A DNA stretch of 64,000 nucleotides from a virus. The position numbers and the translations under genes are program-made. The notes below the pieces were generated by a model, which saw only the letters and a program-made list of their open reading frames with translations, made no database searches and was not told the DNA's origin. The stretch covers positions 62,001 through 126,000 of the IMG/VR virus record IMGVR_UViG_3300027759_004177, one strand, 5' to 3'. Shown one piece after another: positions 8,909-54,391 of the stretch; the stretch's first letter is position 1; each line of letters starts with the position of its first letter.

Positions 8909-9871
8909 TTATTTCTTCACAATAGATTGCATGGTGTTGAAAACTTTTTGTTGATTTTCCAACAGCATTTCTCTTGTGCCACCAAATGGTGCTGATGCCA
9001 ATGGTCCTAATCTTTTTTGGATTTCTGGATCGCTAAAACCTTTGGCCAACACCAGATATAAATCTCTGACTATGTGGTCAGGTGTTCCGGCTGGTGCCCA
9101 AACTCCAAAAATCGAAGATAACACAAAATTTGGATGATTTTTATTCAACCACACGGCCTTGGTTGCTGGAGGATTGAATTTATTGGCCATGTCTACCCCT
9201 GCTGGGTCAAATGCTCCAATGATTTTTAATTTTCCTGCTTTGACATGTGATTCCGGAACAGAAATGCTGTCAACTGCTATTTTGACATGGCCTCCCAGCA
9301 CATCGGTCAACACTGGACCAGATCCTTTGTAAACTATAAAATTGGGTTCTGGTAGTTTTTCTAGTTCTGCCCATTTTTTGTAGATTGGGGCCATGATGGC
9401 ACTGAATATGCCAATGTCAAACTTTTTGGGGTTTTGTTTTGCCCATGCAACAAATTCTGCATAGTTGTTGAAAGGTGCATCAGCACTGGCATATAAAACC
9501 TGGATACTTGGCACCACTGGAAAAACTGGTACGACACTTTTTGCGGTGTAAGTGGCAGTGGAATCATTTACTAGTCCTGTGTTAAAACTGGCAGTGGCCA
9601 CTACCATGAGATTGTGCCCGTCGGGTTCGGCTTTGGCAAAGTGGTTCATGCCAATCACACCACCAGCACCAGCCATGTTGGTCGTCACTGATTTCCAACC
9701 GTGTTTTTCAAGTATTTCGCTGGTCAGCCGTGCAATAACATCGTTGCTACCGCCCACGGGCCATGGAGTCATGACATCAATGGTTTTGGTAGGTTTGAAA
9801 TTTTGAGCAGATGCTAGGCCGACTGTTAAACCCAGTATCAGAGCGGCAAAGATTTTTGTGATTTTTTTCAT
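8909..9871 (-). CDS. Bug-family (tripartite tricarboxylate) substrate-binding protein
   Basis: Protein of 320 aa, normal for the family. Signal peptide 1-22 (MKKITKIFAALILG.. ASA), then the Bug/TctC pattern: PWPVGGSNDVIAR near residue 35, AGAGGVIGMNHFAKAEPDGH near 65-85, and a C-terminal AGTPDHIVRDL. Such proteins bind carboxylates or aromatics in the periplasm. None of the membrane partners (TctA/TctB) is in the window. Start chosen at the AAGGATC ribosome site, giving a clean signal peptide. Very common in Burkholderiales, unusual for a phage; probably acquired from the host. Confidence 0.9.
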   Translation of the reverse strand: MKKITKIFAALILGLTVGLASAQNFKPTKTIDVMTPWPVGGSNDVIARLTSEILEKHGWKSVTTNMAGAGGVIGMNHFAKAEPDGHNLMVVATASFNTGLVNDSTATYTAKSVVPVFPVVPSIQVLYASADAPFNNYAEFVAWAKQNPKKFDIGIFSAIMAPIYKKWAELEKLPEPNFIVYKGSGPVLTDVLGGHVKIAVDSISVPESHVKAGKLKIIGAFDPAGVDMANKFNPPATKAVWLNKNHPNFVLSSIFGVWAPAGTPDHIVRDLYLVLAKGFSDPEIQKRLGPLASAPFGGTREMLLENQQKVFNTMQSIVKK

Positions 9872-9911
9872 AGAAAGATCCTTTGATTTAGAAAATGTGT
9901 AACTAGATATA

Positions 9912-9940
9912 AGTTTACACTGAGCTAATAAAAAATGCAA
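9912..9940 (-). promoter_or_regulatory. sigma70-like promoter for the Bug receptor gene
   Basis: TTGCAT, 17 bases, TAAACT with a TG extension. Two near-identical 15-base direct repeats lie just upstream at about 9943-9979 (AGCAGAACTTTGGTG and AGCGGAACTTTGCTG). Confidence 0.55.
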
Positions 9941-11176: not shown

Positions 11177-11776
11177 TTATAGTGTATTTTTAAATGCTTG
11201 AGCAGCACTTTTATCAAATGTGCCCATGTTACTGGTTACGGATATCCTGGCCTGGCTGGAACAATTGGGTTCTACCATGTGTAATACAAACCCTGGAAAG
11301 AATACCAGTTTACCTTCTGCAGGCTGAATGCGACTAAACTTTGTGCCGTTAACGCCATCATTTCCTGAATCCCAGTCGCATCCATTGCGAGGATCTATTA
11401 GCAATAAGTCACCACAGTTTTCAGGAGCCTTAACATAATAGGTCATTGCAATCTTGGGGCTACCATGTCCATGTATGGGCATACCTTGACCAGGTCGGTG
11501 ATAGTTTATCCAGCCACGAGCATGCCAGAATTCAAATTCCTTGACAGTTGGTGCTATGTAATCGTATGTCTGTGCTTTGACTATTTTGATAGTGTAGTTT
11601 TTTAGTTCTTGTACTCGGGGACTATCGCAGTTCCAAATATTAGAGTTGCCAGCGTCGGCTTCAGGATCACAATATTGGCCAATTTCGTCAAGTAGTTCGT
11701 TGTTGAATTGTTCGTCAAAGTCGGTTTGTATTTCCCACACAGGGGTCACCCACATGTCTGTTTTAGTTATTTTCAT
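11177..11776 (-). CDS. putative 2OG-Fe(II) oxygenase (PF13759-like)
   Basis: Protein of 199 aa. Pattern of the phage 2OG-FeII_Oxy_5 family: H-G-H (MPIHGHGSP), YYVKAPENCGDL, then GKLVFFPGFVLHMVEPN with the distal His and ARISVTSN with the Arg. The same family is represented at 13931-14569. ATGA overlap with the upstream desaturase gene ties it to the block. Target unknown. Confidence 0.78.
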   Translation of the reverse strand: MKITKTDMWVTPVWEIQTDFDEQFNNELLDEIGQYCDPEADAGNSNIWNCDSPRVQELKNYTIKIVKAQTYDYIAPTVKEFEFWHARGWINYHRPGQGMPIHGHGSPKIAMTYYVKAPENCGDLLLIDPRNGCDWDSGNDGVNGTKFSRIQPAEGKLVFFPGFVLHMVEPNCSSQARISVTSNMGTFDKSAAQAFKNTL

Positions 11777-12471
11777 TTGAATTGAACCAAGTTGAGTCGA
11801 TTTAAAATCTGCAGATAGTAGAATCCCAAATCAAATTCATTTTTATTTACAGCCATGTTACACAGCCTGCTGTCTCTATGGTGATTGTTGTGTAGTTCTT
11901 CACCAACACACAGTATGCCTACAGGAACAACATTACGAGTATAGTCGCCTAGGTCAAAATTTTTGTAACCGATGCTATGACCAAATACTGTTATTGTTGC
12001 GATTGTTAAAAAATTTACCACAAACAAATGTACAATCCATACGAGAATTCCCAACCAACCAAACAACAGCATGTTGATTAACAATAACAATACAACTCCC
12101 AGTCTTGGATGCCGATCAATAACGGTGTCGGTAGATGCTTCCGCACAGTATCTATGATATTCTTGATCAGAAACTGTTATTTTATACGATCGAAAGAAAC
12201 TTGGAACTAGACAGCACCGCAACAAAGACCAAAAACCAAATCTAGGAGTATGAGGATCATTGTATGAATCCGAGAACTCGTGATGCTTTCTATGTTGTAC
12301 CACAAACTCTCGAGTAACCACATCAAACAAGATCCAATACATGATCTTCATTGCGGTTTCTACTCGCGGAGTCAGGTTGTATTGTCTGTGTATCATATAT
12401 CGATGCATGTACAGGGAAGCCAGCACACAGCCCAGGTGTATGGTCACAATGGTATAGATCAACATCAACAT
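11773..12471 (-). CDS. membrane fatty-acid desaturase (copy A)
   Basis: Protein of 232 aa with the three histidine boxes of acyl-CoA/lipid desaturases: HRYMIH near residue 23, HRKHH near 61 and HNNHH near 199, and hydrophobic helices between. It would insert a double bond in acyl chains using a di-iron centre. Shorter than bacterial DesA types. A second, more canonical copy is at 40538-41272. It overlaps the oxygenase genes on both sides, so is expressed with them. Confidence 0.85.
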   Translation of the reverse strand: MLMLIYTIVTIHLGCVLASLYMHRYMIHRQYNLTPRVETAMKIMYWILFDVVTREFVVQHRKHHEFSDSYNDPHTPRFGFWSLLRCCLVPSFFRSYKITVSDQEYHRYCAEASTDTVIDRHPRLGVVLLLLINMLLFGWLGILVWIVHLFVVNFLTIATITVFGHSIGYKNFDLGDYTRNVVPVGILCVGEELHNNHHRDSRLCNMAVNKNEFDLGFYYLQILNRLNLVQFK

Positions 12472-19331: not shown

Positions 19332-19943
19332 ATGGCAATCGTAGAAACAAAAATTATTAGTAGACCCGATCCCAGCATCCCGTTTTTTAATCATATCAAT
19401 GCTCCGATTGTGTTGGCATTCAAAGCAGAACTGGGTCTAGTCAAAACAATATCTGATACAGACACATATTATAAAAACATCAATGATTCAGAATCAATTG
19501 TTCTAGAACGTACTTATTCCATCAATTCATTGACACAAACAAGCAGAATGACCTTTGATTCGTTGGCCACTTGGTCTACTGTTGATTCAGCGACTAGCAT
19601 TGCAATTGACAAGGCGTACATTGATTATGCTGAAGCCAATGAACTAACTCACCCCACTGGTCAATATAGCTTGGCAGGTATTGACGCTCCGTTTACTTGC
19701 ACCACAACTTATAATTATAATTCCAATACTACAACTGGCTATCCATTGTTTGAAAGTTTCATTGACGTAATTGAATCATCTGATAAATTAACAAGTTTTA
19801 CCAACACAGGCACACAATTAATCGCTGTTCACACATACACTAATGCTACTGATTTCACTGAAAATCATTGGAAAGATTATAATTTTATAACGTCACTGCA
19901 TAACGGTGGAGTCACAAGAACTATTGCATACGCAATGGTCTAA
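19332..19943 (+). CDS. phage hypothetical protein, probably virion-associated
   Basis: Protein of 203 aa begun at MAIVETKII after AAGGAATTTAGAC. Rich in Ser, Thr, Asn and Tyr with little charge, like many virion surface proteins; no domain recognised. Single plus-strand gene between minus-strand operons, with its own late promoter word and terminator, so a self-contained late unit. Confidence 0.65.
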   Translation: MAIVETKIISRPDPSIPFFNHINAPIVLAFKAELGLVKTISDTDTYYKNINDSESIVLERTYSINSLTQTSRMTFDSLATWSTVDSATSIAIDKAYIDYAEANELTHPTGQYSLAGIDAPFTCTTTYNYNSNTTTGYPLFESFIDVIESSDKLTSFTNTGTQLIAVHTYTNATDFTENHWKDYNFITSLHNGGVTRTIAYAMV

Positions 19944-19982
19944 TCAAATTCAATGTAAATAAAAACAATAATATATCAATTA

Positions 19983-20005
19983 AAAACCCGCCTAGTGCGG
20001 GTTTT
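19983..20005 (+). terminator. rho-independent terminator (bidirectional)
   Basis: AAAACCCGC/GCGGGTTTT stem with a 5-base loop between convergent genes 19332-19943 and 20011-20412. Confidence 0.85.
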
Positions 20006-20010
20006 GTGTT

Positions 20011-20412
20011 TTATGCAGGCGTCCAGGCTTTTATCTTATCACGTCCCAGCAATTCTGCTGCGGCCCAGGCTCTGTGATTGCCATCTAAAATATAGCCACG
20101 AGCATCTATCACAATGGGATTTGTGTCTACATGGTGTTGACTGTGTTCACCAGCATGTGCAGGGTCTACAAACATGGCACGATTGTAAGGATCATCAGTT
20201 TTGTTATCTTGTTGTTCGTCGTCATATTCTTGATCAGGTATGCGTAAGGTACTCAATGGTACAGTACGCAATTGGTACCGTGGATATTGTTTGATTAGTT
20301 TTTCTAAAAAGCCGCCACCCTGTTGATCCTCTGGGTGTATGCCTTTGACATATTGCCAAACCTGTTCGCTGGACACGGTCGGAGACTCAGTGACAAATTC
20401 CCGGGCTCTCAT
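20011..20412 (-). CDS. ParB/Srx-like domain protein with capsid-targeting-like N-terminus
   Basis: Protein of 133 aa. Opens MRAREFVTES, similar to the T4 capsid-targeting peptide (MKTYQEFIxE type). The C-terminal half has NPIVIDARGYILDGNHRAWAA, the core of the ParB/sulfiredoxin-like fold with its D-G-N-H-R nucleotide-handling motif. Overlaps the stop of 20409-21707 by 4 bases. Likely an internal head protein delivered to the host; activity (nuclease or CTPase-like) not shown. Confidence 0.65.
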   Translation of the reverse strand: MRAREFVTESPTVSSEQVWQYVKGIHPEDQQGGGFLEKLIKQYPRYQLRTVPLSTLRIPDQEYDDEQQDNKTDDPYNRAMFVDPAHAGEHSQHHVDTNPIVIDARGYILDGNHRAWAAAELLGRDKIKAWTPA

Positions 20413-21707
20413 CGGGCACTGGCTACAAAACGTAGATCTCTACTGATTGTGGCCAACTCTTTTTTGCCTTGTGGTCCAGCTTTATGAACTGTGTCTTGAT
20501 CCACATAGGTATCAGGCTCATCAGCTGATGTTGGTTTTACATTCACTGGCTTGTCTGTGCGGGTGTCAAATCCGTGTATGTTTATGCTACGACCATAGCG
20601 ACGCTGTAGTTCTTGCCAAACACGTTGGCCACCTTCACTTTGTTTTTTGTCACTGACCAGGGTGATACCAAGTTGTAAAATTAAAAACGCATACAAGTCA
20701 GCGGCACGGTAGGTGTTCTTGGGTCCGGAGTATGTGCCCATTACCACAAAGCTATCTCGATTTTCAGAATATGAACGACCAGTGGTGGCCAACTGACTAA
20801 TGCGTGTTTCAGGATTGTACACATAGTATGTTGTTGTCCCGCGATCTTTCCAACTCCATAGCTCATATCCGCCGGGCATTTTGCTGACAAAGTCTGTTAA
20901 ATAGTCGGCTTCTTGACCGCGTGGAATAGGTCGACCATCATTGGGCATGACATCCAAGTGTTGGCGCTTGCTTTTGGCCACAGTGGGTACAGCAGTGATC
21001 TCATTGAGATTGTTGGTTAATTCGTACACAGTGGAACCTGCATAATCAGAAACGTCAACACTATATCCCCAGGTGGCGGCGTAACGCCGAACTAGTCGAT
21101 CATACAATTTAGCTCGGCTTTGATTGTTGTCGTCGTCGTCTTTGGTAGCACTGAAACGAATATGCTCTGGATGTTGCTTTTTAATAAACTGTTGTATTGC
21201 ACCTAATACGGTGGCAAACACTCGCTGTGCATCACCTTCGCCAGTTACGTCTTGGCTATTGTTTCTGTGGAACTCAATTTGATATTCGCCATCTTCTTCG
21301 CGGTTAAACATGATACTGAGATACGTGCCATCTGCTAAGGTAGCTAAAGCATCGTAGTCACCAAACTCACCCTTTTCCCATTTGACCGGGTAAGGTTGAT
21401 CAAACGCTTCCATTATGCCAGTGGCTCTGCGTAGTTGTAGATCAAAGTCCACATCGGACTCGTAACGGTTAATAAACCGTTCATAGTACTGTCGTGCTAG
21501 TGCAGGAGTATCAGCTTCAAAGCGATCTACTATCTGTGCGGATCCAGCAGGACGATCTGCGTGATAGATTTCATAACCTTTGTTGAGACGATCACGCACA
21601 CGAGCCATGTGATCCATACGGCGATCAACATGCTTGCCGGCGCCTTGTAGATAGCGTTGTAATGCTTCATCACTAATTTCGTCTAGGAATAATTCTGTAA
21701 TAAACAT
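20409..21707 (-). CDS. large phage protein with capsid-targeting-like N-terminus
   Basis: Protein of 432 aa begun at MFITELFLDE; its ATG overlaps the TAA of the upstream gene (TAATG), and earlier codons belong to another frame. Two similar halves: HIRFSATKDDDDNN-RAKLYDRLVRRYA near residue 200 and VSDKKQSEGGQRVWQELQRRY near 360. Both recall the acceptor and CoA parts of GNAT-like domains in phage proteins, but catalytic residues are not clear. Likely packaged in the head. Confidence 0.6.
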   Translation of the reverse strand: MFITELFLDEISDEALQRYLQGAGKHVDRRMDHMARVRDRLNKGYEIYHADRPAGSAQIVDRFEADTPALARQYYERFINRYESDVDFDLQLRRATGIMEAFDQPYPVKWEKGEFGDYDALATLADGTYLSIMFNREEDGEYQIEFHRNNSQDVTGEGDAQRVFATVLGAIQQFIKKQHPEHIRFSATKDDDDNNQSRAKLYDRLVRRYAATWGYSVDVSDYAGSTVYELTNNLNEITAVPTVAKSKRQHLDVMPNDGRPIPRGQEADYLTDFVSKMPGGYELWSWKDRGTTTYYVYNPETRISQLATTGRSYSENRDSFVVMGTYSGPKNTYRAADLYAFLILQLGITLVSDKKQSEGGQRVWQELQRRYGRSINIHGFDTRTDKPVNVKPTSADEPDTYVDQDTVHKAGPQGKKELATISRDLRFVASAR

Positions 21708-24541
21708 TATGTACTCATCTTGGGTCTGCAACTGAATGCACTTGGATCTTCTGCGCCAATGTTGCGTAACCAACCTTGAGCCTGTGTCCAAGCACTGGTT
21801 TGGTCATGGTCAGCAAATTCGTGGACCACATGTCCTGAATCACGTTCATATATTTGCCACATAGGAACACCATTTGGTGCAGTTACCTGTACAGGATCGC
21901 CTGCACGGTATACCAAAGTAGCATCATCTCGACCAGTCAATTGTTCTATGTAGCGTTTTACTTCAATGGCAATACTTCTGTTATTGTCAGAGGCCGCCGC
22001 TGTTGATACATATCCGTAGATCCTATCGCCGGATTTAACTTCATAATAGTCGCCGGTTGCAGGACGTTGTGTTGAGAATCCTGCAGGGGGCTGATCACCT
22101 GTCTGTGGATTGATGTGGTTTGCCAACTGATCTCGCCAAGGAGGCGTATCTGTAAAGTTCTGAGCAACGTCAGGTTCGGCATCCTTGTCTGCCTGTTGTG
22201 CTCGTATTTCTAAATTGTCAGCATTTTCAAAATCGTGTAGTGTGGCCACTTGCTTTAATAGTTTTTCGGCTTGTTCTCGATCAACTCGTTTAATAGTATC
22301 AATCACACGACCTGTTGGTGTGTAAACAACGTCCCAGTCTTGTTTTTGCTTGTTGGGATCCTTAGGTATCTCTTCAATAGCAAGACGACCTTGTGGTAGT
22401 TTTTGCTCACGTTCAAATTTACGCATAGCTTGTACTAAACCACTCTTACGACCTTCTTGTTCGTAGTGTACTTCGCCAGTCTTGGTATCGTATACTTTCC
22501 AGTTTTTAATTTCTTCGGCTGGGGCTGCTTTGATATTTTTAGCAAGACGCTCACGCTTGGTCAACTCTGGTTCTGGTGCTTCTGGATCTGCTGGACGTAA
22601 GTTAAACCCAATACCTTGATCAGCATATTTGTCGTATACACTATCAGCGGCTGCACCTTTGGTTTCAAACCCATTCAAGATTTCCAATGTTTCTCCGGTG
22701 TTAACATTGTATACTTCCCAGTCACCTGACTCAGAATTTGATGGCAAGAATTTATACTCCTGTTGGAAACCTTCCATACTGCCGCCAGGACTTATCTTTT
22801 GCTTGGCTCGTTCCCATGCTTCTGTTTTGGTATAGCCATTATAGGTCTGTCCCGGTACACGTTTGCCGTAGCTGTCGTACAAGACCCAGTCACCTTTGGG
22901 TTCTTTTTCCAACTGTTTTTCTGCCCAACTCTTTTTAAGATCCGTACTTGAAATTTCGCCGGCAGCAAAACGACTGAACAAATCCAACGCAGGATCACCT
23001 TCAGGTGGGCTGATCAATTTGTATAACTTCTTGTAGTATTCTTTGCGTTCAGCAGCAGGATTGGCTGCCACTGTCATGGCCTTGGCATAACGCATCAAGG
23101 TATTCTTCAGTCGGTTGATATCTTCAAAATAGTTTGAACCGCCAGCTGAGCGAAACTCAATGTACTTGGCGCCGCGTTCCAAGTGTGGCTTGGTACTGTC
23201 GTTGCCACCTTGTGGGTTGATACTGGTGTACTTGCCAAAGCCGTGATTGTTGATCTCTAAAGCCTTTTGTGCCAGCTCCAGTAAATTGTGACGCATTAAC
23301 TCTAATGCACCACCAATGGCTTCTTTGTTACCTCGCACACGTTGACGTATTTTTTTAATAGCAGCTTCGCAGAAGTGATTACCACTGCGACCAAAATCTT
23401 TTAGTACGTGTTCGTCACCCAAGAACAGGGCCAGCTTGACATAATCAACTTGCCCACCTGTGACCGGTAAACTGACACCCATATGGAATCCGGTTGAACT
23501 ATTACTGTAAGCACCGTTTGATTCAGCCCACTCAAAGAAGTTTTCCATTTGACGCAAACATTCTTCCAATGGCATAGGCGGACTCACAATCTCCACTGGC
23601 ATGTTGTCTGAATCGTCGGCATCTAAACTCATGTCTGGTTCAAAGATCCAAGTTTCATCATCACGACGAGCAGAGTGATATCCGCCCGACACCTTGGTCT
23701 TGACACCCAGTTCCTCACTCAAACTCTTTGCCAACTCTCTAGCATTGTCTTCGCTGAAGCCGCCTTCACTGCTTTGACCAGTGTAAGTTATTACCGGCCA
23801 CATCAATTGGAATTCACTGGCGATGTCACTCATCCAACGCAGGCCAACATCACTAAAGAAACCTGAGTCATCGTCCACATAAAAATCATCGCGGAACTCA
23901 TCTAGTGCTTGATCGTAGTACCCGTCTTGATCCTTGATACTTTGTTCAACATCTTCTTCAAGTATTTCTTCCGCCCCTTCTACTGCTTCAACGTAAAGTT
24001 TGTAGTCAGGATTTGATTTAATATAAGCATCAGCTTCGGCACTGGTATCAAACTTTGGTGCTGCCTCGCCAACTGCTTGTATGCGGTCGGCTTCTCTATC
24101 GTCCATGTCCATGCCTTCGACCAAATAGTCGTGTATACGTTCGGTCATTGGGCGTTCGTCTACCCAAATTTTACGTACAAGATCTTCAGCTTCGTCACGG
24201 AATGCACGGTACATTTGATCATCGTGCCATTCCATGTACTTTTCATCTAGGCCATCTTGCAAGCTGTCTAGGTCACGACCGTATGTAGCATAGCCATATT
24301 CATCGTTACTGAAAAAGTCTATGACTTGTTGTACGCTGTTGGCACGTTCGTCGGCATCGTAGTCGGGTTCTGGATCTTCGTCGTACTCGGCTTCACCGCC
24401 TAAGCCTGTAAACACCAGTTCGGCTTCAAAGCCAGCACGTATGCCTTCGGCTTCGGGACTGGCGGCAAAAGCACGAAGACTGCCCGGGCTCATGCGTAGT
24501 TCGTCTAGTTGTTGTTCAGAAAGTAGCTCTTTGTATCGCAT
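21707..24541 (-). CDS. amidoligase-like protein, putative internal head protein
   Basis: Protein of 944 aa. N-terminus MRYKELLSEQQLDEL resembles a capsid-targeting peptide with a possible cleavage after LSE. Residues 30-480 fit the Amidoligase_2 (glutamine-synthetase-like ATP-dependent ligase) layout: FEAELVF near 40, WIFEPDMSL near 300, VEIVSPPMP near 320, TGFHMGVSLP near 355, then KYIEFRSAGG near 460. Residues 540-950 hold about five repeats of a small unit starting W-x-V-Y-x-x-x-T-G. It may form amide bonds on host or virion peptides. Late promoter word and hairpin leader upstream. Confidence 0.7.
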   Translation of the reverse strand: MRYKELLSEQQLDELRMSPGSLRAFAASPEAEGIRAGFEAELVFTGLGGEAEYDEDPEPDYDADERANSVQQVIDFFSNDEYGYATYGRDLDSLQDGLDEKYMEWHDDQMYRAFRDEAEDLVRKIWVDERPMTERIHDYLVEGMDMDDREADRIQAVGEAAPKFDTSAEADAYIKSNPDYKLYVEAVEGAEEILEEDVEQSIKDQDGYYDQALDEFRDDFYVDDDSGFFSDVGLRWMSDIASEFQLMWPVITYTGQSSEGGFSEDNARELAKSLSEELGVKTKVSGGYHSARRDDETWIFEPDMSLDADDSDNMPVEIVSPPMPLEECLRQMENFFEWAESNGAYSNSSTGFHMGVSLPVTGGQVDYVKLALFLGDEHVLKDFGRSGNHFCEAAIKKIRQRVRGNKEAIGGALELMRHNLLELAQKALEINNHGFGKYTSINPQGGNDSTKPHLERGAKYIEFRSAGGSNYFEDINRLKNTLMRYAKAMTVAANPAAERKEYYKKLYKLISPPEGDPALDLFSRFAAGEISSTDLKKSWAEKQLEKEPKGDWVLYDSYGKRVPGQTYNGYTKTEAWERAKQKISPGGSMEGFQQEYKFLPSNSESGDWEVYNVNTGETLEILNGFETKGAAADSVYDKYADQGIGFNLRPADPEAPEPELTKRERLAKNIKAAPAEEIKNWKVYDTKTGEVHYEQEGRKSGLVQAMRKFEREQKLPQGRLAIEEIPKDPNKQKQDWDVVYTPTGRVIDTIKRVDREQAEKLLKQVATLHDFENADNLEIRAQQADKDAEPDVAQNFTDTPPWRDQLANHINPQTGDQPPAGFSTQRPATGDYYEVKSGDRIYGYVSTAAASDNNRSIAIEVKRYIEQLTGRDDATLVYRAGDPVQVTAPNGVPMWQIYERDSGHVVHEFADHDQTSAWTQAQGWLRNIGAEDPSAFSCRPKMST

Positions 24542-24556
24542 AATCAGTCATAAAAA

Positions 24557-24579
24557 TAGGGTAATTTTTAGTTACCCTA
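24557..24579 (-). promoter_or_regulatory. 5' leader hairpin
   Basis: Perfect 8-bp TAGGGTAA/TTACCCTA stem with a 7-base loop starting one base after the late promoter word, so at the extreme 5' end of the message. Such hairpins can protect an mRNA from decay. Confidence 0.55.
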
Positions 24580-24580
24580 G

Positions 24581-24588
24581 TATTTATC
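24581..24588 (-). promoter_or_regulatory. late promoter word GATAAATA
   Basis: Seven of eight bases of TATAAATA upstream of the amidoligase-like gene. Confidence 0.6.
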
Positions 24589-24607
24589 AATGGTTGAGTT
24601 TGACTGG

Positions 24608-25426
24608 CTAGTCTGCTGATTTGCACTTGGCACGTTTAGCATTGGTTAGGGCACCGTAGTCTACACGCCATTCTTCGCCAGGTACCAGTTCTACAGCATT
24701 TGCTGGAAATTTAAACTGCACACCCGACTGCGTGGCTATCTGTGAAACAGGCACACGGAATTTGCTGAGATCATTGCCTAGATTGACATAAGGTTTTGTG
24801 TGAGGGAAAACCCAGCCGGCCACTTGCCCACTGCGTTGATTGATTACTATTTTGTAAAATCCGTGCGGCACAACCACCCCAGAACCAATACGAGGATTTT
24901 TTTGATCATATATGGCTCCCACATAGATTGTAAACGGTTGATTCAGCTGTACAGTCCATCCACGTATGCTGGTTTCTAGCAATTTCCAAATGCCGCGATT
25001 TAGGCTACCGTGTTGTGGGTACATGTTGGTCATCAAGAAACTTTCGTATTCTACGATTTCACTCCAACTCAAATCGCCGTCGGGAGCGGCATGTCCTTTG
25101 TCGTAGCCGGTACCGGCATAGTCATCGGGCCTGGCTCCACCCTGTATGCTTTGATCAGCAACAAACGCATTGGTGCGTGGCCAGCATCCTAGAGCATTTT
25201 GTGGTAATAAGGTGTAAGCCACATAGCGTGGAATCATGGCTGGCGCATCATAGGCCACCAAATAAGCTTCTCTGCAGATGGCCTGTGGTTTGACCGCTCC
25301 GCCAACTGTGGCCCAGCCATATGGACTATGGACTTTACAAGCGTCTACTGGTAATGGGGCACGTTGTTCCCAAGCAAAAGTCGACGTGGATAGTGTGAAG
25401 GCTAAAACAGCCAATAACTTCTTCAT
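24608..25426 (-). CDS. secreted DNA/RNA non-specific endonuclease (NUC1 family)
   Basis: Protein of 272 aa. Signal peptide 1-18 (MKKLLAVLAFTLSTSTFA). The beta-beta-alpha-metal motif is YDKGHAAPDGDLSW near residue 115 (DKGH in place of DRGH), followed by the metal-binding Asn region MTNMYPQHGSLNRGIW near 140. It would cut DNA and RNA in the periplasm or outside the cell, for nucleotide scavenging or exclusion of rival DNA. GCTAAATA, a weak late word, lies at 25448-25455. Confidence 0.88.
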   Translation of the reverse strand: MKKLLAVLAFTLSTSTFAWEQRAPLPVDACKVHSPYGWATVGGAVKPQAICREAYLVAYDAPAMIPRYVAYTLLPQNALGCWPRTNAFVADQSIQGGARPDDYAGTGYDKGHAAPDGDLSWSEIVEYESFLMTNMYPQHGSLNRGIWKLLETSIRGWTVQLNQPFTIYVGAIYDQKNPRIGSGVVVPHGFYKIVINQRSGQVAGWVFPHTKPYVNLGNDLSKFRVPVSQIATQSGVQFKFPANAVELVPGEEWRVDYGALTNAKRAKCKSAD

Positions 25427-25450
25427 TGAAAATCTCCTATTATGGAGTAT

Positions 25451-26008
25451 TTAGCCGTAGATCTCTTGAAACAGGAATTGGCTGTCTTGTAAAAAAGTAT
25501 GCCAAAGATTTCGATTTTTGTAGTTTATTTCTTTTTGTACTGTGATCCAAGTGGGCGGATTCAGATGAATCTGAACTTCAGAATCTGTATCTATGGTACG
25601 CACCTTTAAACCGTGTTTGACACACAAATGTTTGACAGCCAAATTCCAAGTCAAGCAATGCATGTACAACTCAGTGTATCCACGATTACGTGCCCAGGTG
25701 ATACCTTCTTCAATCAGTTGACTGCCTATACCTTCTCCACGCAGTTCTTTTTTGACTATGATACCAAATTCAATTGATTTGTCACTGAGTTCAGCGATGT
25801 GCAATGTTCCTAACCAGCCATCACAGTTTTTAATTATTAAAAAGTGATGTTTGTTGGGTTCTTGCTCTATGCGATCTATCAGATTTTCTATCAAACCCAG
25901 TCCGCCAGATGTACCAAAGTACATTTGACGTGTTTCATCATCCTGCTGTACTAACCAATCACCATAGCGATAATATTCCTTGGCGTTTAGAAATTCAGTT
26001 ATCAGCAT
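25451..26008 (-). CDS. GNAT N-acetyltransferase
   Basis: Protein of 185 aa begun at MLITEFLNAKEYYRYG, another N-terminus like the capsid-targeting set. GNAT core: GTLHIAELSDKSIEFGIIVKKELRGEGIG (strand 4 with the R-x-x-G-x-G acetyl-CoA loop near residue 105) and LIEEGITWARNRGYTELYMHCLTWN. It would acetylate an amine on a protein or small molecule. Two bases after the stop of the small gene upstream. Confidence 0.8.
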   Translation of the reverse strand: MLITEFLNAKEYYRYGDWLVQQDDETRQMYFGTSGGLGLIENLIDRIEQEPNKHHFLIIKNCDGWLGTLHIAELSDKSIEFGIIVKKELRGEGIGSQLIEEGITWARNRGYTELYMHCLTWNLAVKHLCVKHGLKVRTIDTDSEVQIHLNPPTWITVQKEINYKNRNLWHTFLQDSQFLFQEIYG

Positions 26009-26010
26009 TT

Positions 26011-26127
26011 TTATTTTCTGTACAAGTCCTGTGCTTCCGTATACTTGTGATTGCGAGCCAGTTCGGCTGCATATTTGGCTTGACCGATGGCGCACATGAT
26101 GCACCAGAATTTTTTAAGAAATTTCAT
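26011..26127 (-). CDS. 38-aa small protein
   Basis: MKFLKKFWCIMCAIGQAKYAAELARNHKY.. amphipathic N-terminus with two cysteines, then helical. TGGAGAACAACA ribosome site; late promoter word and a 9-bp leader hairpin (26142-26165) upstream. Function unknown. Confidence 0.6.
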   Translation of the reverse strand: MKFLKKFWCIMCAIGQAKYAAELARNHKYTEAQDLYRK

Positions 26128-26141
26128 TGTTGTTCTCCAGT

Positions 26142-26165
26142 TATATCAGTGTTTCTACTGATATA
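26142..26165 (-). promoter_or_regulatory. 5' leader hairpin
   Basis: Perfect TATATCAGT/ACTGATATA stem (9 bp, 6-base loop), two bases after the late promoter word, same arrangement as at 24557. Confidence 0.55.
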
Positions 26166-26167
26166 AT

Positions 26168-26175
26168 TATTTATT
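26168..26175 (-). promoter_or_regulatory. late promoter word AATAAATA
   Basis: Seven of eight bases of TATAAATA, upstream of 26011-26127 and the GNAT gene. Confidence 0.55.
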
Positions 26176-26203
26176 GCAGAGCAACAATGATTAACATATT
26201 CTA

Positions 26204-26794
26204 TTATCTTTTTGTGATGATCTGGTCAATCAATCCGTATGCCAGTGCTTCTTCTGCACTCATGAAAAAATCTCGTTCCATGTCCACACTGAACTCTTCA
26301 AAAGTTTTGCCCGCAGAGTTGTGTTTGACATAAATCTCGGTGAGATACCGTTTCATTTTGAGAATTTCTTGTGCTTGGATTTGGATATCTGTGGCCTGAC
26401 CACGTGCTCCGCCCGATGGTTGGTGAATCATGTGTCGAGCATATGGTAACATCATGCGTTTGCCTGGGGCTCCTGCGGTTGATAACAAGCTACCCATGGA
26501 GCAAGCCTGCCCCAATACAATAGTGCTAACGTCGGGTTTGATAAACTGCATTGTATCGTAGATGGCCATACCTGCTGTAACGCTACCGCCGGGGCTATTA
26601 ATGTAGAATAATATGTCTGCATTTGGATCTTCGCTTTCTAAAAACAACATTTGTGCTACAATTAAACTGGCACTATGCTCGTTGACATCTGTGTCTAACA
26701 TCACAATACGATCCCGGAGCAAGCGACTGTAAATGTCGTAAGCACGTTCACCGTTGCTTGTTTTTTCTAATACTGTTGGCACAAAATTTGGCAT
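26204..26794 (-). CDS. clpP: ATP-dependent Clp protease proteolytic subunit ClpP
   Basis: Protein of 196 aa, normal length. Catalytic triad visible: Ser99 in GQACSMGS, His124 in MIHQPSGG and Asp about 171 in [16 protein letters not shown] forms the oxyanion region. Close to bacterial housekeeping ClpP, so it could assemble with host ClpX/ClpA, or act as a phage processing protease. With the phage tmRNA and ClpS it completes a tag-and-degrade set. In an operon with 26803-27651. Confidence 0.93.
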
Positions 26795-26802
26795 AATATT
26801 CC

Positions 26803-27651
26803 TTATGTAAATAACACTGACTTGACTGATTGCCTTGCTTCTATTTCTTCAAATGGCACTGACCCCACGATGTCAGCTAGTGGTACACTACCGCTGACAA
26901 AACAACTTTGCCAAGGTCCAAATATCAATTGATTCTTGTCATAGTATTCTTGTATTATAGCACGTTTTTCCTCGGCTTGCAACTGTGATTGTTCGTAGAA
27001 TCTTACCACAAAGTCGGCTGAGTAGTGTCTAAACGGCTGGAATGCGTTGTTACTGATATATAGATCATTGTCCCAAGCCAAGTGTTCTATGGTTTTGCCA
27101 ATTTCTGAATAGTTTAAAAATATTGTACCTGGCGCCCATACATCTGTGAAATGGGTGTAGTCGGACTCTTCTAATACTGTGTCTTTGGGCAGTCCGTACC
27201 AGGTGACCACATGCCTGGGTTCTGCACCACGGGCGACACTTTCGCATCTGTGTACACAAATGTTTAAATCAGCCAATACCGGTCTAAGTGCGGTGTTGCT
27301 AGCCTGTTGTTTGTCGAGCAGTCCGTGATATGTTTCAAATATAAAATGCCAATAATTAAGCAGATCTTGATCTGCTACGTCTGCCACATACTGCCCTGTC
27401 ACTTCGGGGTAGTATAATTTAATTGTAGTTATACAGCGATTGATTTTTTCTAGAGCATTGTGCTGTTGATCCTTGATGCTACCAAACCCGTAAAATCTTG
27501 CCGGGTCATCTATTTCGTATTGTTGCTGGGCCAGCATGACCTTTTTGACCCAACGGGCAACCACAGGATTATCTCGCAGATGATATTGCACCATGATGGA
27601 GTCATGCAGGTCAGCAGGGTTAGCATATTCAATATGCAACTTGGTAAACAT
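26803..27651 (-). CDS. phage hypothetical protein
   Basis: Protein of 282 aa. Helical N-terminal half, then [44 protein letters not shown] and a conserved-looking [20 protein letters not shown]. Similar proteins are common in T4-like aquatic phages; no activity known. Promoter at 27658-27686. Confidence 0.65.
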
Positions 27652-27657
27652 AGGATT

Positions 27658-27686
27658 ATTATAACAGAAAACTACAGATTAGTCTA
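27658..27686 (-). promoter_or_regulatory. sigma70-like promoter for the 27651/clpP operon
   Basis: TAGACT, 17 bases, TATAAT on the minus strand, running into the end of the SprT-like gene. Confidence 0.65.
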
Positions 27687-28172
27687 GCACTTAGTGAAGT
27701 CTTGATGTCGGAACCAACGTTTTTGACCGTGGGCCGTTTTTAAATTCAAACCATAATGGCCAAAGCGTTCACGCCACATAAAAAAGTCTGGACCGTGGGC
27801 TCCGCCTCTTTTTTCCATTTTACCGTTGTAGTGTTCCCAACGATGTATGTCCCATTGATACTGATGTACCATTTCATGTGCTAGGGTCTGTATGAACCAC
27901 TGTGGACAAAACCATTTATCTACAATATTAATACTACAATAGCTACCATTGTAATATTCCTCATCTTCCCATTGGCAAAAACCCCAGACTCCCTTGAGCT
28001 GACGTTGCACTATTTCGGGCTTGCGTAATTGATTATCAAAACAGTATCTGTTGATTATATTATATGCGTAGTTAATGTCTGCATATCCGGGGCGAAATAA
28101 CTTACGACGTTGGTAAGTGATGCTGGGAAGCTCAGCCTCCATAATTGCTCTGATGGGATTGGGTCTAGCCAT
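27684..28172 (-). CDS. SprT-like zinc metalloprotease
   Basis: Protein of 162 aa. HEMVH (H-E-x-x-H) near residue 95 in QTLAHEMVHQYQW, then a Gly-His element (GGAHGPDF) that can give the third ligand, as in SprT/Spartan proteins that digest DNA-protein crosslinks. N-terminal AYNIINRYCFDNQLRKPEI matches the family opening. TATAAATA at 28192-28199 and a GAGGG ribosome site. Confidence 0.85.
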   Translation of the reverse strand: MARPNPIRAIMEAELPSITYQRRKLFRPGYADINYAYNIINRYCFDNQLRKPEIVQRQLKGVWGFCQWEDEEYYNGSYCSINIVDKWFCPQWFIQTLAHEMVHQYQWDIHRWEHYNGKMEKRGGAHGPDFFMWRERFGHYGLNLKTAHGQKRWFRHQDFTKC

Positions 28173-40537: not shown

Positions 40538-41272
40538 ATGGGCTTATTAATATACATTCTGGTGATGACTCACATCACCATTGCTTGCGTTACTCTATAT
40601 CTACATAGAAGTCAAGCACACCGCGGCGTTAAATTTGATTCACGTGTTGAACACTTTATGCGTTTTTGGCTGTGGCTAACCACAGGCATGGTCACAAAAC
40701 AATGGGTAGCAACACATCGCAAGCATCACAGATTCACTGATGCCGACGGTGATCCACACAGCCCACATGTGTTTGGAATCTGGCAAGTATTCCTGTGTGG
40801 TGCATTTTACTATGCTGACGCTGCCAAAGACAAACAAATGGTTGAACAATACGGAGTAGGTACACCCGACGATTGGGTTGAAAAGAATATCTACACACCA
40901 TTTAACTTTGTGGGCATAGTGTTAATGTTTTTTATCAACTGTGCTATATTTGGTTGGGCATGGGGATGGTTACCTTGGTTATGGCAAATGATTTGGATTC
41001 CCTTATGGGCCGCAGGTGTCATCAACGGTTTTGGGCACTGGTGGGGATATCGCAACACACAGACCAAAGATTACTCAACCAACATTGTGCCGTGGGCATT
41101 CTTCATTGGCGGAGAAGAACTGCACAACAATCATCACGCAGATCCTGCTAGTGCTAAACTTAGTATGAAGCGGTGGGAATGGGATCTAGGCTGGACCTAT
41201 ATTAAACTTCTAAATCGATTTGGTCTTGCCACTGTCAAAAACCCTCAAATCGACAACGTGCCGGCCAATTAA
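40538..41272 (+). CDS. membrane fatty-acid desaturase (copy B)
   Basis: Protein of 244 aa. Histidine boxes HRSQAH, HRKHH and HNNHH, with FVGIVLMFFINCAIFGWAW and WIPLWAAGVINGFGHWWGYRN helices, as in bacterial delta-9 acyl desaturases. Paralogue of 11773-12471 but with longer HxxxxH-flanking matches to bacterial enzymes. Expected to desaturate membrane lipid acyl chains. Its last 63 bases overlap the convergent radical SAM gene. Confidence 0.88.
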   Translation: MGLLIYILVMTHITIACVTLYLHRSQAHRGVKFDSRVEHFMRFWLWLTTGMVTKQWVATHRKHHRFTDADGDPHSPHVFGIWQVFLCGAFYYADAAKDKQMVEQYGVGTPDDWVEKNIYTPFNFVGIVLMFFINCAIFGWAWGWLPWLWQMIWIPLWAAGVINGFGHWWGYRNTQTKDYSTNIVPWAFFIGGEELHNNHHADPASAKLSMKRWEWDLGWTYIKLLNRFGLATVKNPQIDNVPAN

Positions 41273-42363: not shown

Positions 42364-42524
42364 CCGGGGCGACACAAATTGGATTTGGCACCGTTTAAAC
42401 TATACATACTGATCCACTTGTCGACTTCGCTGCCATATTCGGGCATACGGTACGGCAAGAAATACAACTGTAAAAACCACCATACATAATTATCAATATA
42501 AAAATCAATTAGGTTATTTCTCAT
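42360..42524 (-). CDS. 54-aa aromatic-rich small protein
   Basis: MRNNLIDFYIDNYVWWFLQLYFLPYRM.. amphipathic and aromatic N-terminus, polar C-terminus with one Cys. Overlaps the cyclase stop by 11 bases; ribosome site weak. It may bind the membrane. Function unknown. Confidence 0.5.
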   Translation of the reverse strand: MRNNLIDFYIDNYVWWFLQLYFLPYRMPEYGSEVDKWISMYSLNGAKSNLCRPG

Positions 42525-44565
42525 GAGCTATGAATTCCCCATTCCAGTTTGCTGGTAGGTCTTGTTGCTTCATAAAGTCGCAACGTTCAATCCATATCTT
42601 ATAGTACTTGTCCATTTGTCCACCAAAGTTGCCTGTTAACTTTTTGCACATGGCGGCCGCTTCATTGAATTTTTTCTGACGGTACAGGTCATGCATTACA
42701 TCGTGTGCTTCCTTGTCTTTGCTGTAATCTTCACCTCGAGTACGTAATACTGTATAGATTAAGTCTGCTACTGTCTTGCCTTTTGGTTGTAAGTTATCCA
42801 ACAGCAAGTAGAAGAAATCATCTTTAGTTCTGTTGTATGTTTCAGCACCGATAATGGCCAACACACCGTAAGCCTTACAACGTGCTTCTAGTCGGGCGGC
42901 TGTACTAACCATGTCACCCAAGATATCATAACTGTGTCGGTCGGTTGAACCCATCTCACCAATGAACCCAACACCTGTGTTACAGCCCCAGCCCATTGCA
43001 GCTGGCGGCAAGCCTTGTGCTTCCATTTCTTTGGTATAAGCATCTACAGCGTCTAACATTTCTAAACCTACTTTGACAATAGTTCTAGCATGATCAGGAT
43101 CGTCTATAGGCGCACCATGAATGTGCATACTTGCATCACCCACATACTTGATAACCATACCCCGGTTGTCCATGATAGGTTTTGAAATAGCATCCATGTA
43201 ACCGTTCATGTATTTGCCTAATCCGCCTACATCATCGCCATAGTGTTCGCCAATTGGTGTAAAGCCACGTAAGTCACTAAACATAACACTTACGTCTTTA
43301 CGCACACCACGTTTGATCAAGTCAGGATCTTTCTGTAACATCTCCACAACTTCTTTTGAACAGTAACCAGCAAACTGTTTCTTTATGGCTTGCTTTTGTA
43401 AGAACTCGCTTACAAACTTAACACCGTAAGCATGAAGGAGAATAACAGTGAGGCCGCCAGCAAGGGCAGTAATGTCAAATAGCCAAGCATTAGCCGTGTA
43501 AACGTACTGAGATACAGGATACAAAATACCAAGAGCGATAACACCAGTAGCAAGTCCAACATATACATACCTCGTTAAAAATAATAATACGATACCTAAA
43601 ACCACAATAGCAATGATCTCAGCACCATCGGCCCAGTCGGGTCTTGATATTGCTGGACGATCTTTGTTGGCAATAACTGTGCCTAATACTGCGGCCTGTA
43701 AATCTTGTGGTAACATTTCGCCCAGGCTTGTGGCTACAGGGTTTGCTAGACCTTGCGCCGACACACCAACAATAACGATTTCACCATCAAAGTCTCGGGG
43801 CAAGTTGGTTAGGCTATAACGCTCTGGTGTCAAGCTCCAGTCAATCCATATACGACTCAAGCTGTCTGTGGTCACAGGACCAAATGCTGGAATTCGCATT
43901 TTCTCAACACCCTGCTCATTGATTTTAACTTGGAAGGTTGAGTCGCCTGCAGCCACACGCATGACTTCCATGGCCAGGCTTGGATACAATCGACCGTTGT
44001 AAGCAACTACCAGTGGCATACGACGCACAACACCGTCAACTTCCGGAAACGTGTTAACAACACCAACTCCGGCAGCGGCCGTTTCTACACTGGGAATGTT
44101 AGCGATAAGCCCCGGATAGGTCACAAACGCATCTAAACCAAATGGTCCAATTACTGCTGATCCTGGAGCTCGTGGTTGATTTCTTGTCGTTGTTGATCCA
44201 ATGCTAGGAAGTACCGTTGGGTATTGTTTTAACGCTTGCACATACGCAGTATCTTGCCCCATACGGTCTTTATCTGGAGTAAGAATATTAAACACAACAA
44301 GACCAGCATTACGTCTGTAAAGGTCTCGAATAATGGCACCGTATGTATCACGGGAAAAAGGAAATTGCCCATATCGTTCTAATGCTTTCTCATCTATGTT
44401 TACTACACTGACCCCGATCGTTTCGGCAGGTCGGCTAGTAACAAGTGTATCGAAATAGCGTAGCCTTACGCTTTCAACAAACATAGGATCTGCAACACGC
44501 AAGCCCACAATGATTGCTAGTGTTAATAGAGCAGTCCAAGGACTGATTAAGATTTTTTTGAACAT
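42514..44565 (-). CDS. CHASE2-domain membrane adenylate cyclase
   Basis: Protein of 683 aa. N-terminal membrane helix, extracytoplasmic CHASE2 sensor (about 30-305), three membrane helices (about 316-380), then a class III cyclase domain (about 420-610). Metal Asp in MFSDLRGF (432) and YVGDAS (478); adenine-selecting Lys474 and Asp548 are present; Arg559 is in AARLE. The transition-state Asn normally in V-N-x-A-x-R is Ser (MVSTAARLE), so activity may be lowered. A tail of 70 residues looks TPR-like. Would make cAMP in response to a periplasmic signal. Confidence 0.88.
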   Translation of the reverse strand: MFKKILISPWTALLTLAIIVGLRVADPMFVESVRLRYFDTLVTSRPAETIGVSVVNIDEKALERYGQFPFSRDTYGAIIRDLYRRNAGLVVFNILTPDKDRMGQDTAYVQALKQYPTVLPSIGSTTTRNQPRAPGSAVIGPFGLDAFVTYPGLIANIPSVETAAAGVGVVNTFPEVDGVVRRMPLVVAYNGRLYPSLAMEVMRVAAGDSTFQVKINEQGVEKMRIPAFGPVTTDSLSRIWIDWSLTPERYSLTNLPRDFDGEIVIVGVSAQGLANPVATSLGEMLPQDLQAAVLGTVIANKDRPAISRPDWADGAEIIAIVVLGIVLLFLTRYVYVGLATGVIALGILYPVSQYVYTANAWLFDITALAGGLTVILLHAYGVKFVSEFLQKQAIKKQFAGYCSKEVVEMLQKDPDLIKRGVRKDVSVMFSDLRGFTPIGEHYGDDVGGLGKYMNGYMDAISKPIMDNRGMVIKYVGDASMHIHGAPIDDPDHARTIVKVGLEMLDAVDAYTKEMEAQGLPPAAMGWGCNTGVGFIGEMGSTDRHSYDILGDMVSTAARLEARCKAYGVLAIIGAETYNRTKDDFFYLLLDNLQPKGKTVADLIYTVLRTRGEDYSKDKEAHDVMHDLYRQKKFNEAAAMCKKLTGNFGGQMDKYYKIWIERCDFMKQQDLPANWNGEFIAHEK

Positions 44566-44569
44566 CAAG

Positions 44570-49088: not shown

Positions 49089-50531
49089 TTATTGTCTTAC
49101 GGTTATTACCCCGCATCCGCCGGCTGTCACACAGGTTGTTGTTATGTTATATACTGCTCCACCCGATTGTATCAGATCTACTGACCCCGGACCGCCTGAG
49201 TTGTTGATTGTGATTGAAGCACGATTAGCCGTGGCTCCTTCTTGTACTGCTGTTATGGTATTGCCATTGCCAGTTAGAGTACTTTCCAGATAGTGTTGTC
49301 CGCCATCTTTTTGTACAACCGACACAGTATTGTTGTTGCCTGTGACTGTGTTGAACAAGGTTTTGTTGGCATTATTGGTCTGCGTGGCATTTACTGTGTT
49401 GGTATTACCGTTGATAGTGGTTTCCATATAGTGTCCACCCACACCGCCAGTGTTGTTTTGTTGCGTGGTCACAGAATTGTAATAACCAGTAACATCCACA
49501 CGCTGATAGTGATTGTTAGAACTGTTGGTTGATGTTCCTGTGGCAGTTACACTTTGATTCAAATTTAAAACGTTGTTGCCGCCTACCACACGCATTTCTA
49601 TTGTGTTTTTACCTGCGGTATCTAGGTCGCCTTGGCGTACAGTAATGCTATTACTACTGCCTTGTATCTGTACAGCCTGTTGCCCTATGCCCTTGAGTTC
49701 GTTGGCACGACCTGATTGCGTGACATTAACGGTATTGTTATCACCCACTTGATCTATGTATATGGTGTTGTTGACCACGCTTTTGGTTTGAAACGCTGTA
49801 ACTCTGGACTGTTGTTCGGTTGTAATATTGGCTGTGTATGTGGGTGCTGGAGGTGGCGCACTATATCCTCCAGCGGATCCACTGGTAGAACCGCCTGTGA
49901 CCGAGTAGTTACCGCCATTGACTGGTGCTCCGTTGTTTATAACGCAGGTTTGTGTTCCGCTGTATAGGGCACAACTTTGCCAGCCATTGCTACTGGTCCA
50001 GCCTTGAGCATAGCCGTTGGTTCCGTACACACCAAATCCTGGGTTATATAAAATGTTAGGGCCGCCGTTAAAACTCAAACTTGGGTCGATAATATACGGT
50101 CCATAGTTGCCGGCCCAGTAGCCGCCGTCTTTGCCATAGAACTCTACCTTAACATACGCAACTGAGGCACAGCTTCCACCACAGTTGGTAGTTGTTAGTG
50201 TATATGTTGTGGGGGCGGTAGCTCCGTAGACCAAGGTGTTGGCCTGCTGTACTGTGTTAACGATTTGGTTGCTGCTATTATAAAAAACCAGTCTTATGGT
50301 AAACGGATCGCCCGGAGCACGACCACCACCATCCATTGCCTGCACAGAAAGAGTTAGTGTTCCGCCGGTCTGCATGGCACTATCGAAAACCACAGTCTGA
50401 CTGACTGTTGCAAAGTTGTAGCCCATCTTAAGGGCATTAGACGTTGTTTGTGCTTTTACCAAACCCAAACAGGACAGCTCTAACAAGGCCACAGCAAAAA
50501 TTATCAACAGGTATGTAAACAATCTTTTCAT
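49089..50531 (-). CDS. curlin-repeat surface protein
   Basis: Protein of 480 aa. Signal peptide about 1-27. Residues 28-230 form a beta-sandwich with a Cys pair (CGGSCA). Residues 245-480 contain curlin-type repeats of the form x-x-G-N-x-N-x-V-x-x-x-Q (QVGDNNTVNVTQSG, TGNNNTVSVVQKD, LTGNGNTITAVQEG). Such repeats stack into amyloid. May be a minor or nucleating fibre subunit (CsgB-like role, inferred). TAATG overlap with the FecR-domain gene. Confidence 0.8.
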   Translation of the reverse strand: MKRLFTYLLIIFAVALLELSCLGLVKAQTTSNALKMGYNFATVSQTVVFDSAMQTGGTLTLSVQAMDGGGRAPGDPFTIRLVFYNSSNQIVNTVQQANTLVYGATAPTTYTLTTTNCGGSCASVAYVKVEFYGKDGGYWAGNYGPYIIDPSLSFNGGPNILYNPGFGVYGTNGYAQGWTSSNGWQSCALYSGTQTCVINNGAPVNGGNYSVTGGSTSGSAGGYSAPPPAPTYTANITTEQQSRVTAFQTKSVVNNTIYIDQVGDNNTVNVTQSGRANELKGIGQQAVQIQGSSNSITVRQGDLDTAGKNTIEMRVVGGNNVLNLNQSVTATGTSTNSSNNHYQRVDVTGYYNSVTTQQNNTGGVGGHYMETTINGNTNTVNATQTNNANKTLFNTVTGNNNTVSVVQKDGGQHYLESTLTGNGNTITAVQEGATANRASITINNSGGPGSVDLIQSGGAVYNITTTCVTAGGCGVITVRQ

Positions 50532-51649: not shown

Positions 51650-51659
51650 TTATAATCGC

Positions 51660-52451
51660 TTATCTAGCAGTTTGGTTTATAGTTACGCTATTTCCATTTC
51701 CACTGCTACTGGTAAAATTAAACACATTAGCCGCAACACCACCAGACTGTGTCACAGTAAAAGTATTACTACTACCAGTCTGTGTTATACTTGCGGTATG
51801 TCCGCCATCAGCTTGACTTACAGTAAATGAGTTACTGGCCCCCACGGCTGTGATTGTGGCGCTGTTACTGTTACCAGTTTGTGTAACTGTAGCATTATTG
51901 CCACCGCCACCAGTTAGGCTGATGTTTTGTGTATTGGTGTTGCCTTCAACAACGCCAGTAAATGTATTGTTGGCACCACCTGCGGTATTTACAGTTACAC
52001 TATTATCATCGCCCTTGATGTTAAGATTGGCAGTGGCATTATTACCTGACTGTGTGATATTCACAGTATTTCCCGATGCTGTACTGTCATTGGCATTATT
52101 TAAATTAATAATACCTGCGGCGTTGTTACCCGTGACACTATAATTTACCGTGTTACCAGTGGTTCCTGTGCCTGTGCCACGATTGATTCCTAAACTCAAG
52201 GTATTACTACTACCAACCTGATTCACCGTCACTTCGTTACCGTCACCATAGATGCCGGATGGGGTAGTGTTGCTGGTTCCTGTGCCTTGTATGCCGCGTA
52301 CCACGTTGCCTGTTCCGTCTTGTGTAATAGAAATGGTGGCGTTGTCACCTGTTTGATCAATGTAGATACTGTTATCCACAGCATGCACACTCACACTCAT
52401 CACAATACCTAGCAGGATTGTTGTTACTTTTGTCGCTAGTTTGTGTTTCAT
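51660..52451 (-). CDS. curlin-repeat amyloid subunit (CsgA-like)
   Basis: Protein of 263 aa. Signal peptide about 1-24. From residue 27 nearly the whole protein is curlin repeats: YIDQTGDNATISITQDG, ISLTGGGGNNATVTQTGNSN, VSQADGGHTASITQTGSSN, ending SVTINQTAR. E. coli CsgA has five repeats in 151 aa; this has about nine. It is expected to be secreted through CsgG and to polymerise on the cell surface. Confidence 0.88.
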   Translation of the reverse strand: MKHKLATKVTTILLGIVMSVSVHAVDNSIYIDQTGDNATISITQDGTGNVVRGIQGTGTSNTTPSGIYGDGNEVTVNQVGSSNTLSLGINRGTGTGTTGNTVNYSVTGNNAAGIINLNNANDSTASGNTVNITQSGNNATANLNIKGDDNSVTVNTAGGANNTFTGVVEGNTNTQNISLTGGGGNNATVTQTGNSNSATITAVGASNSFTVSQADGGHTASITQTGSSNTFTVTQSGGVAANVFNFTSSSGNGNSVTINQTAR

Positions 52452-52472
52452 AATACTTCTTCCTTTTTGACC

Positions 52473-54287: not shown

Positions 54288-54391
54288 ACTGCTACCTCTT
54301 TTTATTATTATTATCGGTAGTAGAATCGTCAAGACTCTAGCTCCTATTAGTATTTAACAGGATCTAGCACAAATTAAGTGGTGGTTTTAAT

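Follow-up and report, generated by a model that had tools for sequence, protein, structure and literature searches.

Putative T4-type capsid-targeting peptides at the starts of three neighboring enzyme genes in an environmental jumbo phage

Three adjacent genes of a T4-like jumbo phage, encoding a ParB-like protein, a 432-aa multidomain protein and an amidoligase-like protein, start with short peptides of the kind that directs proteins into the T4 head, and we consider it likely that the products are tagged virion cargo, that is, targeted to the prohead core, cut by the S77 prohead protease, injected and early-acting. Because these N-termini closely match the T4 head-loading label, it is probable that the three enzymes travel inside the particle and enter the host along with the DNA. 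The genes lie in a window of 64,000 nucleotides, the whole stretch of DNA analyzed here, which spans positions 62001-126000 within a virus record of 356,865 bp.

The three genes belong to a minus-strand run at whose start lies clpP (26204-26794). Directly downstream of clpP is a gene for a GNAT acetyltransferase (25451..26008; PF00583, 3.3e-11), followed by genes for an EndA-type DNA/RNA non-specific nuclease (24608..25426; PF01223, 1.5e-38), an Amidoligase_2-domain protein of 944 aa (21707..24541; PF12224, 5.4e-7, above the curated cut-off), the 432-aa protein (20409..21707; PF22028 at 3.3e-5, below the curated cut-off, and phrog_16075 at 1.3e-18) and the 133-aa ParB-like protein (20011..20412; a weak match to phrog_620, 5.7e-4), the last three being the putative cargo. 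These last three genes are coupled through overlapping stop and start codons, TAATG between the amidoligase and 432-aa genes and ATGA between the 432-aa and ParB-like genes, and the overlaps support the assigned starts of the 432-aa and ParB-like proteins. In the 432-aa protein, the N-terminal peptide is followed by a module at approximately aa 8-95, a DUF6934-like domain at approximately aa 96-235 and a C-terminal module. A fold search with the DUF6934-like domain gave numerous weak matches to the GNAT fold, with a TM of about 0.4, which we do not regard as an identification. The DNA surrounding the run has no close relative in phage records.

A sequence-only reading of this region had claimed a shared, capsid-targeting-like start in four neighboring genes. 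All four peptides are indeed present at minus-strand gene starts, namely MRAREFVTE in the ParB-like protein (20386..20412, with the cut predicted after E9), MFITELFLDE in the 432-aa protein (21678..21707, resembling MELITELFDE of T4 Alt), MRYKELLSE in the amidoligase-like protein (24515..24541) and the tag-like MLITEFLNAKE in GNAT (from 26008 down), but the literal pattern M-x3-E-F/L-x2-E fits only two of them, since the final E is preceded by one additional residue in the 432-aa peptide and by two in the GNAT peptide. The fifth gene within the run, that for the EndA-type nuclease, encodes a secretion-type N-terminus without a tag.

In T4, the first 10 residues of IPIII, MKTYQEFIAE, are sufficient; targeting rests mainly on residues 4 and 7 and processing on residues 8 and 10, and the gp21 protease cuts after L/I-x-E (PMC9026906). 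The sequence-only reading had likewise described T4 internal head proteins as carrying an MKTYQEF-type tag cut after L/I-x-E by the prohead protease. When one residue is removed near the IPIII start, IPIII positions 4, 7, 8 and 10 align with positions 3, 6, 7 and 9 of the tag in the window. Hydrophobic residues at the equivalents of IPIII positions 4 and 7 are found in the ParB-like (A3, F6), 432-aa and amidoligase-like proteins and, in part, in GNAT. At the end of the peptide, an [L/I]-x-E cut site is present in the 432-aa (F-L-D-E) and amidoligase-like (L-L-S-E) proteins, and more loosely in the ParB-like protein, where V stands for L/I (F-V-T-E); GNAT lacks such a site. The 38 distinct tagged N-termini of homologues from IMG/VR all have E at position 9, I, V or L at position 7 and E or D at position 5, and 32 of them have F at position 6; because these sequences were chosen as tagged, the counts describe the motif rather than test it.

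The gp21-family protease that T4-type tagged cargo calls for is encoded by the same phage. The record contains an S77 prohead protease of the T4 gp21 type at 266441-267073 (PF03420, 3.2e-25, above the cut-off), and its major capsid protein, encoded at 264107-265285, is of the gp23 type (5e-99); the reading frames around these two genes occupy the customary positions of gp22, gp67 and gp20. Since both the protease and the gp23-type capsid are encoded, the record represents a T4-like jumbo phage that has the protease on which capsid-targeting sequences depend. Judged on sequence, cut site and protease, the three peptides are very probably capsid-targeting sequences of the T4 type.

Some of the data would also fit chance resemblance, or helical N-termini such as unrelated enzymes commonly have, devoid of any targeting role. 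The bare DNA pattern M-x3-E-[FL] occurs 8 times in the window against 10.3 expected, with no excess, so that both gene starts and the cut-site part have to be taken into account for the signal to become visible. Loose regular expressions match about 10% of the genes of SPO1 and phage G, both of which lack S77; because these controls match too, such patterns were rejected as evidence in favor of a matrix derived from other phages and a motif mapped from T4 mutagenesis. The matrix was trained on the tags of T4 Alt and the T4 IPs, KVP40 Alt, Atu_ph07 and PA5oct, with the phage's own genome excluded, and was applied to 137 own ORFs, which cover the window and 56 kb of stretches from the record, and to 211 control genes from the phages SPO1, G, phiCbK and N4; the absence of S77 was confirmed in SPO1 and G. 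An initial form of the matrix, in which pseudocounts were low and starts were limited to 25 codons, missed the 432-aa start, and the settings were changed once after the results had been seen.

With this matrix, the amidoligase-like and 432-aa proteins ranked first and second of the 137 ORFs (10.7 each), and none of the 211 control genes reached a score of 9. A DUF6321 protein encoded elsewhere in the record ranked third, the ParB-like protein eighth (4.8) and GNAT 19th (2.4), and the EndA-type nuclease scored -0.1. T4 gp24, a known gp21 substrate (PMC5694885) that was outside the training set, scored 11.5, and T4 lysozyme e, which is not a head protein, reached 5.2. Genome-wide, a score of 5 was attained by 7 of the 137 own ORFs and 3 of the 211 controls, a marginal difference (p = 0.048). 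The motif mapped from IPIII mutagenesis was found in four own ORFs, those for the ParB-like, 432-aa, amidoligase-like and DUF6321 proteins, compared to two control genes, which is not significant genome-wide (p = 0.17); the notable part is that three of the four matches fall inside the run. In 60 kb of T4, the same motif detected only Alt, IPII, IPIII, gp2 and gp24, all of them head proteins. With counts this low, a genome-wide comparison has little power, and we place the weight on rank, clustering and conservation.

Outside the window, at 19385-27963 of the record (L036 5385-13963), a second cluster of tag-like starts was observed: MKSNEFITE (the DUF6321 protein), MIIQEILTA (a protein with a deaminase domain), MKINEVFSPLDE (metallopeptidase-like), MFVFDLFEKK, MDIYQILE, MKSSEFIK and MFLNELAER (cytidylyltransferase-like), along with a Dps/ferritin-like gene without a tag. 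By the matrix, MKSNEFITE alone stands out as strong, and the majority of the remaining starts have scores between 3.6 and 6.9.

Conservation across homologues speaks against a chance origin of the tags. Scores of 6 or above were obtained for 15 of the 26 distinct full-length N-termini of the ParB-like family (p = 3e-14) and 17 of the 51 of the DUF6934-like family (p = 5e-11), each against 3 of 211 controls, although these p-values overstate the independent evidence because the sequences within a family are related. E5 and E9 of the ParB-like tag are invariant in 9 aligned homologues. Codons 2-10 of the amidoligase tag show mostly synonymous changes, three synonymous and none non-synonymous in homologue locus L064, and three and one, respectively, in L075. 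In one contig, the ClpP, GNAT, EndA and ParB-like proteins are 95-100% identical to those of the window, the 432-aa protein 83% and the amidoligase-like protein 58%, with the first 28 residues of the latter unchanged.

Behind the constant tag, the modules move. Homologues of the ParB-like protein were found at 10 and 28 IMG/VR loci, and some are fused to additional domains; the ParB-like gene of the window itself encodes a single domain. In many homologues, the family's domain follows the tag immediately (MFINEVITE-AFDQPYPFKW, MRATEFITE-AFDKPYELL). About half of the homologues with the DUF6934 domain open with a different conserved N-terminal domain, which counts against the model of tagged cargo. 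The 432-aa protein's homologue in L064 keeps a tag without the aa 8-95 module; in that of L075, a ParB-like segment stands in place of the DUF6934-like domain; and multidomain ParB-like proteins of L065 and L066 contain the aa 8-95 module internally. Modules are thus inserted, deleted and shuffled in environmental homologues, whereas the tag M-[RK]-[A/L/I]-x-E-[F/V/I]-[I/V/L]-x-E persists, and the ParB-like, DUF6934-like and other modules recombine in the manner of polyvalent proteins, with effector domains combined in varying orders. S77 is present in all 6 named phages with homologues that were tested and in 10 of 12 large environmental contigs, the smaller contigs being fragments. Given the top matrix ranks unequaled by any control gene, the enrichment in homologue families, the invariant E9 and the retention of the tag where the following module is swapped, a purely fortuitous resemblance appears unlikely. 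By a modest margin, we favor the broader view that, in environmental T4-like jumbo phages, one nine-residue label fronts a large, fast-changing and shuffled set of enzymes, such that any effector domain joined behind it would be packed, trimmed by S77 and injected.

The GNAT protein behaves differently. Four homologues retain T4, F6 and L7, and none has E at position 9; an AlphaFold2 model (mean pLDDT 67) places residues 3-8 in a strand, and the longest reading of one homologue extends 26 residues upstream. By predicted structure and homologue reading, the N-terminal peptide is not separable from the folded domain, and MLITEFL is likely, on the model, the first strand of the GNAT fold. Because the homologues lack the cut site and the start is predicted as strand 1, GNAT was rejected as a tagged protein and probably stands outside the set; at most, it may be packaged uncut, by analogy to IPIII with D at position 10. 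Judging by its signal-peptide-like start, the EndA-type nuclease is probably no head cargo either. Accordingly, the proposal of the sequence-only reading that these enzymes are packed in the head by means of the tag is retained as probable for the ParB-like, 432-aa and amidoligase-like proteins, on the strength of the S77 and gp23 genes, the tag residues and their conservation, and relatives in virions or among virion-protein genes, but not for GNAT.

Relatives of the putative cargo have been linked to virions of other phages. PA5oct gp135, a homologue that matches the PHROG families found for the 432-aa protein, starts with MHLFELFDQ and carries the annotation of a structural protein based on ESI-MS/MS of virions. 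The product of a PA5oct head-module gene, gp333, is MS-positive, starts with MKINDIITEG and, by eye, resembles a 77-aa protein of our phage whose gene adjoins the portal gene. Across PA5oct, a looser form of the tag was found in 8 of 86 MS-detected proteins compared to 16 of 332 others, which is not significant (p = 0.095), and a broad tag pattern showed no enrichment at all among the MS-detected proteins.

In Atu_ph07, a homologue of the amidoligase-like protein was found near the portal gene, and gp053, a homologue with the DUF6934-like domain, starts with MKWNDLNEATG. The products of gp054-gp062 start with M-[RK]-W-x-Q-L-[TNI]-E (MRWEQLTE-type) and gp063 with MRLFQLLE. Overall, gp053-gp063 (L054 21485-32593) form an array of 11 consecutive genes with tag-like starts, 10 of them M-[RK]-W; gp053 contains a zeta-toxin-type kinase domain, and several proteins of the array share a YRGM stretch for which there is no Pfam match. 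This stretch is reminiscent of ADP-ribosyltransferases such as Alt. The array lies in a cluster (CDS 31-76) of which 29 products were detected in virions (PMC6102473), and by this position gp053-gp063 are putative virion proteins. In Vibrio phage D479 (L042 2495-5212), five tandem genes have T4 IP-like starts (MKFQQFLEN, MEFRTFLTEA, MNDFKQFMVEA, MKTLQTYMVEA and MGFMDFYSEA), and at least two of them are related to the domain of the 432-aa protein.

The tags could instead bring into the prohead core proteins that fill the core or scaffold the head during assembly rather than act as injected effectors. The structural T4 proteins gp22 and gp24 bear similar N-terminal cut sites, and loss of IPIII leads to aberrant head assembly in T4 (PMC9026906). 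Nevertheless, the cargo domains are of enzyme type (amidoligase, ParB-like), and one protein body diverged fast beside nearly identical neighbors, a pattern of host-conflict proteins over scaffolds, so that we regard a head-assembly role as improbable. Still less credible, at the level of a very small probability, is a tag that sends the proteins elsewhere, for instance into the assembling tail or baseplate, or exposes them to degradation by the phage's own ClpP, for which one could cite the location of clpP just upstream of the GNAT gene and the tagged MS-positive PA5oct proteins without known location, but against which stand the fit of the conserved E after a hydrophobic residue to the S77 cut rule (PMC9026906) and the fact that the T4 tagged proteins of known location are head proteins.

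Under the preferred model of tagged cargo, the first 9-10 residues of the ParB-like, 432-aa and amidoligase-like proteins would serve as a capsid-targeting sequence. During assembly of the prohead core, the hydrophobic residues of the tag near positions 3 and 6 would attach the proteins to the core, after which the phage's own S77 protease would cleave behind Glu 9 or 10, at [L/I/V]-x-E. The trimmed proteins would then remain with the packaged DNA, exit through the tail and, by analogy to T4 Alt and the IPs, enter the next host together with the DNA, where they would work ahead of phage gene expression.

The closest known systems are T4 IPI, IPII, IPIII and Alt, which likewise open with a short peptide whose hydrophobic residues occupy equivalent positions and which has Glu at the predicted cut, combine a gp21-family protease with a gp23-family capsid in one genome and place varied cargo behind a similar tag. 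The tag in the window is usually one residue shorter than that of the IPs (M-R-A-x-E-F-I-x-E compared to MKTYQEFIAE), the cargo is larger, multidomain and without recognized IP relatives, and cleavage and packaging are predictions here. The Atu_ph07 gp053-gp063 proteins and PA5oct gp135 share the tagged N-termini, the presence of S77 in the genome and, in gp053 and gp135, the DUF6934-like domain; Atu_ph07 differs in the tag variant, M-[RK]-W-x-[QD]-L-[TNI]-E, and in other cargo, including the zeta-toxin-type kinase domain.

Polyvalent proteins (PMC5512222) resemble the present set in the ParB-like, GNAT and metallopeptidase-type domains (ParB and GNAT being among the domain types of these injected proteins), in mosaic structure and in proposed entry into the host with the DNA. 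The passages on packaging in that paper name no T4-type N-terminal targeting peptide; in the window, moreover, several domains are encoded by individual genes that each bear a tag, and an amidoligase is part of the set. In phage P1, the N-terminal signal of DarB alone sends a reporter into the capsid, but BLAST revealed no N-terminal consensus among the Dar proteins (PMC9024508), in contrast to the recognizable motif of the tag in the window. The tag mechanism itself is known from T4, whereas the cargo set and the domain-shuffling architecture with a conserved tag appear to be new; in the open-access papers searched, we found no description of a constant nine-residue label that fronts shuffled multidomain cargo in many environmental jumbo phages.

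The window also encodes other proteins worth recording. These include a curli-type set at 49089-54332 (minus strand), with CsgG (8.7e-42), CsgF (4.8e-10), two curlin-repeat proteins and a FecR-domain protein; a phage-borne fusion of a CHASE2 sensor domain with an adenylate/guanylate cyclase domain (42514-44568, minus strand); a TctC-type tricarboxylate-binding receptor (8909-9940, minus strand; 1.1e-27), which is unusual in a phage; and two fatty-acid desaturase-like membrane proteins (11773-12471, minus strand, and 40538-41272, plus strand).

If the model of tagged cargo is correct, the tag alone would reveal from sequence what uncultivated T4-like jumbo phages inject. One could then predict, independently of function, which proteins work during the first minutes of infection, counter-defense enzymes without a recognizable domain among them, and the natural variants of the tag would be available for testing which residues are read by the prohead core.
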